Assembly: GCA_947463445.1 (NCBI GenBank)
Contig: CANHRS010000021.1
Coordinates: forward strand, 1-35,173
Origin: Flavobacteriia bacterium
GTDB lineage: Bacteria > Bacteroidota > Bacteroidia > Flavobacteriales_D > Crocinitomicaceae
Direction: 5' to 3'
DNA length: 35,173 nt
Shown: positions 16,861 through 18,873 of the stretch, piece by piece
Layout of the letters: each line of letters begins with the position of its first letter
How positions within the stretch are numbered: the first letter of the stretch is position 1
Made by a program: the position numbers and the translations under genes
Notes under the pieces: model-generated
What the model was told of the DNA's origin: nothing
What the model saw: the letters and a program-made list of their open reading frames with translations, nothing else
Database searches by the model: none

Positions 16861-16916
16861 GGGAAGAATATTAAAATGAACTTCGACTACTGTAAGAATT
16901 AAGAAGATATAAAATT

Positions 16917-16982
16917 ATGCAATTTCGGAATAAAACTTATGTAATTTCGGAATTTTATCTATGTAATTTCGGAATTTAAAAC
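16917..16982. repeat. Left 22-bp iteron array downstream of the ATPase gene
   Basis: Three units with an exact 22-bp period begin at 16917, 16939 and 16961. Each carries ATGTAATTTCGGAA (first copy ATGCAATTTCGGAA) followed by an AT-rich spacer. The core AATTTCGGAATTT is a near-palindrome centred on a G, as expected for a dimeric binding site. Positions 16937-16978 are identical over 42 bp to 18206-18247 on the far side of the ATPase gene. The array lies 28 bp past the ATPase stop codon. Confidence 0.9.
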
Positions 16983-17009
16983 AATTAATTAATCTCAAAA
17001 TATTAATTA

Positions 17010-18164
17010 TCAAATAAATAAATCACTCAACTTACTCCAAGAAACAATTTCTTCATTTGATCTTTTCTGATTTAATTCAGAAGTGTTTACGAGGTAATGA
17101 TTGTAGGAATATCCTTCTGTGTCATCCAAGTAATGTAAGGCTTTTAGATATTCACTTTTAACCGTTTGTGATGCCTTCATTTCCAAACAAGACACTGTTA
17201 CACCATCTACTAAAAGCAAATCAATTTCATTCCCGTTGCTATCTCGCCAAAAGTAAAAATCCTGAGCAACTCCTTTGTTTTTATGTGACTTCATCAATTC
17301 CAAGATGCAATAATTTTCAAATAACGCCCCTTTGTAGGTGGAGAGCACCAAATCTTCCGGCTTTTTAATCCCTAATAAATATGCAACTAATCCTGTGTCA
17401 TAAAAATACAACTTAGGCGTTTTAACGATTCGTTTTGAAAAATTAGCATACCAAGGAACCAAGGTAAATGCGATGTAACTCGATTCTAACAACGACATCC
17501 AACGCTGTACCGTTTTACTATCGACACCTAATTGCTTGGAAATACTAGAAGCATTGAACAGTTGTCCGACATGATGCGCCAACAAGGATAAAAACTTTCG
17601 AAACAGCGCTAAATCTTGCACGTTGATAATCGTTTTCACATCGCGCTCGACATACGTACGAATGTAAGCAGGATAAAAGTCACGTGGTTGAATCTGTTTA
17701 TCATACACACGGGGATAACTTCCATTAAAAATAGACGTAAAAACATCTTGTTGTTTTACGGTTTCAATTTCGTCTTGTGCTAAGGGTAGCAATTCCATTA
17801 AGTACACCCTACCTGCTAAACTTTGGGTGATTTTTTCTAACAACAAAAAATTTTGCGAACCACTTAACACATACTGCCCTGTTAGTCCAGAATCATCGAC
17901 AATTTGTTGAATGTATGAAAATAACTGCGGTGCATTTTGCGCTTCATCGATGATAACATATTTATCATAAATTGCTAAGAATCCACGCGGGTCACTCAAT
18001 GCAAATTCTAGATTGTCTGGATTTTCCAATGAGACATAGCGATATTCCGGAAACACTAACTTTGCTAAAGTCGTCTTACCCGATTGTCTAGGTCCTGTAA
18101 ATACTAACACCGGAAACTTTTCAGCCATCTCCAGCATCTTGAATCGTGCGTTTCTTTGTATCAT
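17010..18164 (-). CDS. AAA-family ATPase with winged-helix segment and DUF4143 (PD-(D/E)XK-like) C-terminus
   Basis: The 384-residue protein has Walker A GPRQSGKTT (24-32), Walker B VIIDEA (70-75) and a sensor-like LSGSQNF (100-106) in the N-terminal ATPase domain. SSISKQLGVDSKTVQRWMSL (206-225) looks like a winged helix-turn-helix. The C-terminal DUF4143 domain keeps a possible nuclease-type set: E283 in LFENY, D315 in GNEIDLLL, and E328 and K330 in LEMKAS. No membrane segment is seen. The gene stands alone between icmF and an unrelated small operon, bracketed by two nearly identical 22-bp repeat arrays. A TACCTTTG box 4 nt before its ATG suggests a leaderless transcript with the upstream array over the -33 region. 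The biological role of this family is unknown to me; DNA binding at the repeats is inference. Confidence 0.9.
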   Translation of the reverse strand: MIQRNARFKMLEMAEKFPVLVFTGPRQSGKTTLAKLVFPEYRYVSLENPDNLEFALSDPRGFLAIYDKYVIIDEAQNAPQLFSYIQQIVDDSGLTGQYVLSGSQNFLLLEKITQSLAGRVYLMELLPLAQDEIETVKQQDVFTSIFNGSYPRVYDKQIQPRDFYPAYIRTYVERDVKTIINVQDLALFRKFLSLLAHHVGQLFNASSISKQLGVDSKTVQRWMSLLESSYIAFTLVPWYANFSKRIVKTPKLYFYDTGLVAYLLGIKKPEDLVLSTYKGALFENYCILELMKSHKNKGVAQDFYFWRDSNGNEIDLLLVDGVTVSCLEMKASQTVKSEYLKALHYLDDTEGYSYNHYLVNTSELNQKRSNEEIVSWSKLSDLFI

Positions 18165-18168
18165 GTTT

Positions 18169-18176
18169 CAAAGGTA
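18169..18176 (-). promoter_or_regulatory. -7 box of the ATPase gene
   Basis: TACCTTTG on the minus strand matches TAnnTTTG exactly and ends 4 nt before the ATG. This implies a leaderless or nearly leaderless mRNA. No TTG box lies at the -33 spacing; that region is taken up by the 22-bp repeats beginning at 18186. Confidence 0.45.
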
Positions 18177-18185
18177 TAATTTTTT

Positions 18186-18251
18186 ATGTAATTTCGGAAA
18201 AAAGTTTATGTAATTTCGGAATTTTATCTATGTAATTTCGGAATTTATAAA
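18186..18251. repeat. Right 22-bp iteron array over the ATPase promoter
   Basis: Three ATGTAATTTCGGAA units begin at 18186, 18208 and 18230, again with an exact 22-bp period and in the same direct orientation as the left array. It starts 22 bp upstream of the ATPase ATG and 10 bp upstream of its likely -7 box. A bound protein would therefore cover the -20 to -85 region. Confidence 0.9.
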
Positions 18252-18479: not shown

Positions 18480-18694
18480 AAATAGGAAAATACCGTCATT
18501 ATAAAGGAAAAGAATATGAAGTGTTAGGAGTTGCTACACACAGCGAAACCCTAGAAGAATTGGTAGTGTATAAAGCACTTTACGACATCGAAGGGAAGGG
18601 AAAAGATTCGTTATGGGTACGCCCAAAAGGGATGTTTGAAGAAGAAGTGGTAGTGGATGGTGTGGTTCAGAAACGTTTTGAATTAATTGATTGA
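18476..18694 (+). CDS. DUF1653 domain protein
   Basis: The 72-residue product matches DUF1653: KIGKYRHYKGKEYEVLGVA (2-20), ALYDIEGKGKDSLWVRPKGMF (33-53, the conserved Y and WVRP region) and a closing KRFELI. These small beta-rich cytosolic proteins have no established function that I know of. The ATG overlaps the TGA of the preceding 50-residue frame (ATGA), so translation is probably coupled. A second repeat type (18687-18753) begins at its 3' end. Confidence 0.85.
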   Translation: MKIGKYRHYKGKEYEVLGVATHSETLEELVVYKALYDIEGKGKDSLWVRPKGMFEEEVVVDGVVQKRFELID

Positions 18695-18753
18695 CAGATT
18701 ACAGATTGACGGATTAGCAGGTTGCAGATTGACGGTTTTAGGTTTTAGGATTT
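18687..18753. repeat. Short tandem repeats with 7-8 nt period after the DUF1653 gene
   Basis: Units of the form ATTGACAG, ATTACAG, ATTGACGG, ATTAGCAG, GTTGCAG, ATTGACGG follow one another, then GGTTTTA and GGTTTTAGGA. The sequence differs from the TCGTCAC arrays but the scale is the same. No coding frame passes through it. Confidence 0.6.
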
Positions 18754-18839
18754 TAACCATTAAGAAATTTAGAAGATAAGGACGAGATGAAAAGATGGGG
18801 TTGAGTAAATTAAGGCATAAACTTCTTCTTATGATATAT

Positions 18840-18873
18840 TCGTCACTCGTCACTTACGTCACTCGTCACTCAT
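18840..18873 (+). repeat. Heptad tandem repeat upstream of the sensor kinase gene
   Basis: Two TCGTCAC units, a TT insertion with ACGTCAC, and a further TCGTCAC run toward the kinase gene and end in TCATTTC. It is the cleanest of the three TCGTCAC arrays in the window. The rest of the gap from 18695 to 18986 holds another repeat and two inverted repeats but no gene. Confidence 0.75.

Follow-up and report, generated by a model that had tools for sequence, protein, structure and literature searches.

The locus analyzed here raises the question whether a single gene, enclosed by two copies of the same short repeat array, is an ordinary chromosomal gene or a small mobile module which recognises its own borders. 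The window, i.e. the whole stretch of 35,173 nucleotides that was analyzed, contains the following features:

17010 to 18164, minus strand: AAA_14/DUF4143 ATPase gene, 384 amino acids
18185 to 18243, plus strand: promoter-side iteron array, units at 18185-18199, 18207-18221 and 18229-18243, period 22
16916 to 16974, plus strand: downstream (3') iteron array, units at 16916-16930 (one mismatch), 16938-16952 and 16960-16974, period 22
16937 to 16978, plus strand: left copy of a 42-bp identical stretch, equal to 18206-18247
18206 to 18247, plus strand: right copy of this stretch, equal to 16937-16978
18169 to 18176, minus strand: Bacteroidota-type -7 box TACCTTTG, between the promoter-side array and the start codon
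13415 to 16795, minus strand: flanking long ORF, presumably IcmF-like, used as anchor for the orthologous site

The array units, TATG(T/C)AATTTCGGAA, are all located on the plus strand with a strict 22-bp step, and both arrays read TATGTAATTTCGGAA on this strand, with C for T in one unit. The initial annotation had described two direct arrays of three units around one gene. The unit positions confirm this arrangement, including the period and the same orientation of both arrays, and the proposed 42 identical base pairs are indeed the longest exact match between them. It had also named a unit scattered across the genome apart from any ATPase gene as an observation that would speak against a self-bordered module. 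In the 2.56-Mb assembly, the 15-bp unit with at most one mismatch was found six times, each time within one of the two arrays, and the backwards-read control pattern gave one match. Two arrays in other genomes stand without the gene (L007 and L014, described below). Judged from its position, the promoter-side array would cover the -33 region, a place for a repressor. The spacer to the right of the islet also contains short tandem repeats at 18689-18755 and 18840-18872 (GATTGACAGATTAGCA-like and TCGTCACTCGTCACTC).

The window protein was assigned by Pfam to AAA_14 (E 1.8e-27) and DUF4143 (E 7.9e-50), both above the curated cut-offs, with an additional sub-cut-off match to AAA_22. We take COG1373 to be the same family as PF13173 (AAA_14) plus PF13635 (DUF4143). 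The same Pfam search showed no transposase, recombinase (DDE, serine or tyrosine) or HUH/Y1 domain. The protein has a P-loop (GPRQSGKTT, residues 24-32) and a Walker B motif (VIIDEAQ, 70-76), followed by a helix-turn-helix or winged-helix-like segment at about 182-254, predicted from the secondary structure of the model, and a PD-(D/E)XK-like C-terminal domain. The four residues initially proposed for the latter, E283, D315, E328 and K330, are invariant in an alignment of ten sequences, and together with K30 of the P-loop they are jointly retained in 119 of 123 relatives (E328 or Q at this position). The AlphaFold2 model, built with an alignment of 17 sequences, is of high confidence, with a mean pLDDT of 87.8. 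A Foldseek search placed archaeal Cdc6/Orc1 bound to origin DNA at the top, with STAND ATPases, RFC and RuvB near it and DnaA and ORC among the list. VC1899 and Can2, which we take to be PD-(D/E)XK nucleases, appear at ranks 5 and 14. Since the whole-chain TM-scores of the matches listed are low (0.2-0.4), these similarities are domain-level hints only. A sequence search with the window protein gave no convincing solved structure.

Of 100 genomes sampled from the bacterial family, 72 contain relatives of the gene (E <= 1e-10), with up to 15 per genome. The window genome itself shows 14 DUF4143 matches (E <= 1e-15), and the two family members fetched from it (L173 and L179) have upstream arrays with a period of 32-33. 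For the comparison, 130 family loci were collected, 30 plus 80 from among the matches listed in the family search and 20 further ones, which is a part of all matches. Removal of five duplicates and two loci with too short flanks left 123 relatives, which are clustered by descent, so that counts over them are counts of non-independent events. As control we used 267 genes from 20 regions of related genomes; a random-window control was discarded because its windows took in the arrays themselves.

Upstream of the start codon, 72 of the 123 relatives and 1 of the 267 control genes have a tandem array (period 20-60, score >= 13) whose end is no more than 60 bp away. The periods in the relatives are mainly 22-23 and 31-33 bp. 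If a promoter palindrome (score >= 14 within the last 130 bp) is counted as well, 98/123 relatives and 23/267 controls have one or the other; a palindrome of this score occurs upstream of 22/267 control genes. Both an array and flanking repeats are lacking in 22 relatives; 10 of these possess such a promoter palindrome. The type of the array unit largely tracks the protein tree, in which many forks are weak, with exceptions including L110 and L176. Proteins and proximal promoters also diverge together. Pairs that are 60-90% identical at the protein level have the proximal 130 bp in common in 73-80% of cases and the stretch from -300 to -170 in 1-6%. Above 90% identity the values are 100% and 53%, between 50 and 60% they fall to 10% and 0%, and below 50% either stretch is common to 0-1%; these pairs are again non-independent. 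A TAnnTTTG box, which we take to be the consensus of the Bacteroidota -7 box, occurs no farther than 60 bp from the start in 103/123 relatives and 56/268 controls. Of the 68 genes with both elements, 33 have the end of the array 0-10 bp before the box and 8 have it 11-17 bp before; in 16 the array overlaps the box or extends a little beyond the point where the box begins, and in 11 it is located elsewhere.

In a sample across the phylum, 25 of 30 loci were usable, including the window and L282 from the window's own bacterial family. Without the window, an operator of the tandem or palindromic type is present in 18 of the 24 usable genes, and a strong direct repeat on both sides in 6. Three distant relatives on viral contigs (L022, L024 and L029) show upstream repeated words about 22-23 bp apart, with other units. 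Across the relatives, the array belongs to the gene. Arrays or palindromes on the promoter side alone are more frequent among the relatives than brackets, which suggests that the array serves autoregulation in the first place.

Brackets, i.e. direct repeats close to both gene ends, were detected in 20/123 relatives and 0/259 controls. Outer duplications, located just outside the array, occur in 11/123 relatives and 0/259 controls, with the downstream copy beginning at a distance of 3 to 51 bp from the stop codon. Repeats placed otherwise are found in 9/123 relatives and 4/259 controls. No control gene (0/267) has a direct repeat as strong and as close to both gene ends as that of the window; farther out, a score of >= 16 anywhere within 300 bp was reached in 2/267. 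The brackets recur with unrelated sequences in at least four protein clades. Bracketed loci are the window locus and L061, L044/L046, L104, L059/L127/L120-L123 and L138, and L263 from another genome of the phylum is bracketed too. A general rule of bracketing for the family is rejected. The contrary evidence named in the initial annotation, homologues lacking flanking repeats, exists in part, namely as the 103 relatives without a close bracket. In five distant plasmid relatives (L015-L019) no repeat pair on both sides was found above shuffled flanks, and ten relatives from viral contigs included two with a two-sided pair (L029 and L026).

The 11 outer duplications are 36-139 bp long. As their copies are only 74-92% identical, they appear to be old or imported and not fresh target-site duplications. 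At L107, a duplication of 98 bp includes the start of the neighbouring gene, and both copies map to one stretch in the islet-free genomes G000, G024, G054, G085 and G106. Eight relatives were compared at this site. The islet is absent in six (the five named and G041) and present in G093; G066 is unsure, with a related islet (L054) on another contig and a homologous upstream flank. In the five islet-free genomes with both flanks placed, the site is occupied by other sequence, 26 to about 900 bp in length; the G000 contig ends about 0.4 kb past the site. A clean insertion at L107 was therefore dropped, and the case is suggestive only. At L271, outside the 123 relatives, a 164-bp duplication covers the 5' end of a gene which presumably encodes an oxidoreductase; on one side this gene is truncated, on the other it stays open up to the end of the part that was read. 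A 273-bp duplication at L134 lies farther out and was left out of the 11. L268 carries a 159-bp direct repeat (911-1069 and 2501-2659, 98% identical), one copy of which overlaps the relative's ORF; it is perhaps a recent partial duplication.

For the identification of filled and empty sites, the exact tandem unit was scanned in genome_contigs, which gave eight loci. At six of them a relative of the gene stands with arrays on both sides, and at two (L007 and L014) there is one array and no relative within the stretch retrieved. L007 is a lone array with no relative of the gene within its 6.6 kb. The genomes of L007 and L014 carry other family members, the nearest being 46% and 43% identical. 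L014 is the empty partner of L009, at a site other than that of the window. The flanks of the two are 94.7% identical over 3.86 kb on the left and 88.5% over 1.2 kb on the right. A base-by-base comparison of the junctions showed that L009 contains the gene and arrays of four and three units, whereas L014 contains three units and no gene, so that the difference is the gene plus one array. Both L009 arrays start and end with the same words as the single L014 array, and the left one has an extra unit. With only eight exact tandem-unit loci in genome_contigs, an explanation of the arrays as pre-existing, widely conserved target sites is disfavoured.

The window site was also searched in the genus with the flanking long ORF as anchor, and a match was obtained in 9 of 13 genomes. 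Seven of these have the gene and arrays; the other two have no gene and one decayed array, consisting of two units with one and two mismatches in G001 and of one unit with one mismatch in G041. A clean empty site with one array, as the initial annotation had suggested looking for, was thus seen at two sites, in L014 against L009 and in G001/G041 against the seven filled genomes. The two samples are not additive, because most filled loci are the same genomes again: four exact-unit loci are genus genomes by exact identity, and L008 is apparently G077. G085, which forms the deepest row of the anchor tree, is filled (the tree is midpoint-rooted and most of its inner branches are unresolved). For this reason the gene-less sites of G001 and G041 most simply look like losses which left one array behind. 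Direct repeats can recombine, so that such losses need no dedicated enzyme, and plain recombination between the repeats would suffice at the window site. In G093, a second downstream array is present at this site, perhaps as a relic of another copy.

Movement was assessed by comparing islets with their surroundings. L141, L145 and L154/L155 are 92-93% identical at the DNA level from -120/-134 to +8/+46 (L145 and L155: 92% over -128 to +8). Within about 9 kb on each side they have no other match of at least 100 bp in common, save for about 110 bp beside L141. This match, at about +237 to +343 downstream of the gene, is a second, incomplete copy of the gene start and perhaps a relic of another insertion. 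The islet genes of G082 and G100 are 98.7% identical in DNA and their rpoB parts 81.7%; for G045 and G037 the values are 94.0% and 82.1%, and G045 or G058 against G037 or G082 gives 93-95% for the islet genes and 82% for rpoB. G069 and G045, which belong to one genus, show no islet excess (86.3% versus 87.6% for rpoB). In L155 and L069 the islets are located at the same gene end and are accompanied by a 59-bp duplication. Its right copies agree in 57/59 positions and its left copies in 48/59, which indicates that the right copy of the target-gene end came with the islet. In blocks of 40 bp, the upstream flanks of L069 and L155 are mostly 67-87% identical (one block at 100%, two at 57% and 35%). 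The outer operator reaches 90-92%, the last block before the start 72%, and the sampled blocks of gene and right copy 92-100%; behind them identity is 30% or less. At the level of sequence comparison, this shows that operator and gene move horizontally as a unit in some relatives, once with a repeat copy. L054 versus L106 was first taken for a recent jump and then demoted, because the wider flanks are homologous.

The window copy shows no recent move, since islet and flank are similarly diverged from G085 (77.7% and 79.7% identity), and it looks vertically inherited within its genus. The exact tandem unit was not found in viral_contigs, nor did a single-protein search reveal relatives there; an alignment-based search gave ten distant ones. 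Distant relatives (24-44% identity) are also present in seven phage records. On an Emticicia plasmid (L017, 2232-5691), a relative lies between the genes of L-ribulose-5-phosphate 4-epimerase and L-arabinose isomerase, oriented opposite to both. Another one, on the Runella plasmid pSP2_2 (L015), has a CRISPR-associated gene nearby and a WYL-domain gene as its neighbour, surroundings which invite the label of a defence gene.

Taken together, we consider it rather probable that the locus represents a mobile islet of minimal size which regulates itself and is composed of an iteron array and a gene of the AAA+ ATPase/PD-(D/E)XK type. A mobile islet is preferred to an ordinary gene because of the bracketing, the empty sites with one array and the relatives which travel with their arrays. 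The proposal of a module recognising its own borders agrees with these empty sites, with a unit private to the locus and with the joint transfer of operator and gene in relatives; it has to be restricted in so far as bracketing is not a family rule and the empty window sites look like losses. Likewise, mobility is supported by horizontal transfer in some relatives, whereas the window copy itself looks vertical.

The life cycle of such an islet could be as follows. The DNA-binding domain would recognise the 22-bp-spaced units of the promoter array and thereby repress its own promoter. Operator, gene and any direct-repeat copy would enter chromosomal sites horizontally, as comparison shows for some relatives, though not for the window copy. 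The ATPase-nuclease probably nicks or cuts DNA and may so start entry or exit. Recombination between the two direct copies would remove the gene and leave one copy as a scar, an outcome seen at the compared sites, and the excision might be driven either by the protein itself or by host recombination. The second array would form the other border of the islet in the window's clade; in relatives, other direct repeats take this position, either palindromes or a copy of the target-gene end (36-139 bp, 11 cases). A wider reading is more tentative, and we give it somewhat less than an even chance: AAA_14/DUF4143 genes may represent a large group of mobile elements which are autonomous, consist of one gene and lack a transposase. 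The iteron-binding ATPase-nuclease would recognise its own private array or palindrome, repress itself and use the array, the palindrome or a carried target-gene end as attachment site on entry and exit, and the standing of the family in defence, which is deduced from its embedding in other loci, would partly be a by-product of mobility. Such autonomous elements would be categorically new.

The best surviving alternative, which we regard as rather unlikely, is a gene of anti-phage defence (PDC-S01) which resides in the chromosome, has its own specific autorepressor site and is gained and lost by ordinary horizontal transfer and homologous recombination, the second array being accidental and without a part in movement. 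The PADLOC PDC-S01 models match the window protein (best 2.3e-100), the arrays are in promoter position, recombination between direct repeats accounts for the losses, and inheritance within the genus is vertical. According to PMC12988326, PDC-S01 is an ATPase fused to a member of the PD-(D/E)-X-K superfamily, is counted as a candidate defence gene and is the fourth most common defence across prokaryotes; the same text states, however, that validation is pending for most such candidates. Accident also explains poorly why brackets with unrelated sequences recur in at least four protein clades and in L263, and why duplications of neighbouring sequence begin 3 to 51 bp after the stop in 11/123 relatives but in none of the controls.

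Much less probable is an integrated mini-replicon, in which the arrays would be iterons of replication initiation or partition beside an Orc/Cdc6-like AAA+ initiator and a circle would integrate by homology. An initiator gene with adjacent iterons is a classical arrangement, Cdc6/Orc1 leads the Foldseek matches, which also list DnaA, ORC and RuvB at low whole-chain TM-scores, and relatives, each with less than 60% identity, are found in 384 plasmid records. However, the islet is a single gene of about 1.3 kb, a number of relatives have a promoter palindrome only, the nuclease residues conserved in 119/123 are not expected of an initiator, and a free circle was not seen. Finally, we consider it very improbable that the arrays are structural repeats of the host (terminator or interspersed repeat) placed on both sides by coincidence: small palindromic repeats do generally occur beside genes, as in the 22/267 controls with a score >= 14 upstream, but the unit is private to the window locus, array and bracket frequencies are far above those of control genes of related genomes, and the operator is co-inherited with the protein.

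The preferred reading, a self-bordered mobile islet, has to be set against what is described for the family. To our knowledge, this gene type is not known as a mobility gene. The literature searched, which contained no preprints and few subscription papers, gave no description of arrays, bracketing or empty sites of AAA_14/DUF4143 genes. COG1373 is included in a table of genes shared within gut mobilomes, alongside transposases and conjugation genes, in PMC10782964, and the family is named in PMC4406477 and PMC3861447. Thus, the protein family is already known, and the mobile-islet-like arrangement of arrays and gene seems to be new. If the reading as mobile islets with their own borders is right, a testable life cycle becomes available for a very large set of functionally uncharacterised genes, together with a readable operator per protein and many natural pairs of a protein and its probable DNA site. 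It would also be a caution against inferring defence from embedding. The pairs of filled and empty sites make gain and loss directly testable.

Compared with known systems, the window protein is a full-length member of AAA_14/DUF4143 (PF13173 and PF13635; PDC-S01) with PD-(D/E)XK-type residues; in the literature found, this family is described without self-specific promoter arrays, bracketing or a mobile unit of array and gene. RAYT/REPtrons are similar in that a single gene is bracketed by its own palindromic or iterated repeats. They differ from the window, where a Y1/HUH transposase domain is lacking and the repeats are not dispersed in the genome, all six matches being in the two arrays. 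The single-gene size and the empty sites resemble those of IS elements and gene-end islands, and like the latter the L155/L069 islet carries a copy of the target-gene end. In contrast to both, the window protein has no transposase or recombinase, and the islet borders are direct iteron arrays or palindromes, with diverged outer duplications of 36-139 bp. Iteron-plasmid initiators and archaeal Orc1/Cdc6 origins combine AAA+ and helix-turn-helix or winged-helix-like domains beside iterons, a layout also predicted here, whereas the window protein has a nuclease-like domain in addition. Homing endonuclease genes are nuclease genes which spread into an empty allele; in the islet, however, the array is duplicated around the gene and the recognition site is not split, as the comparison of L009 with L014 shows.
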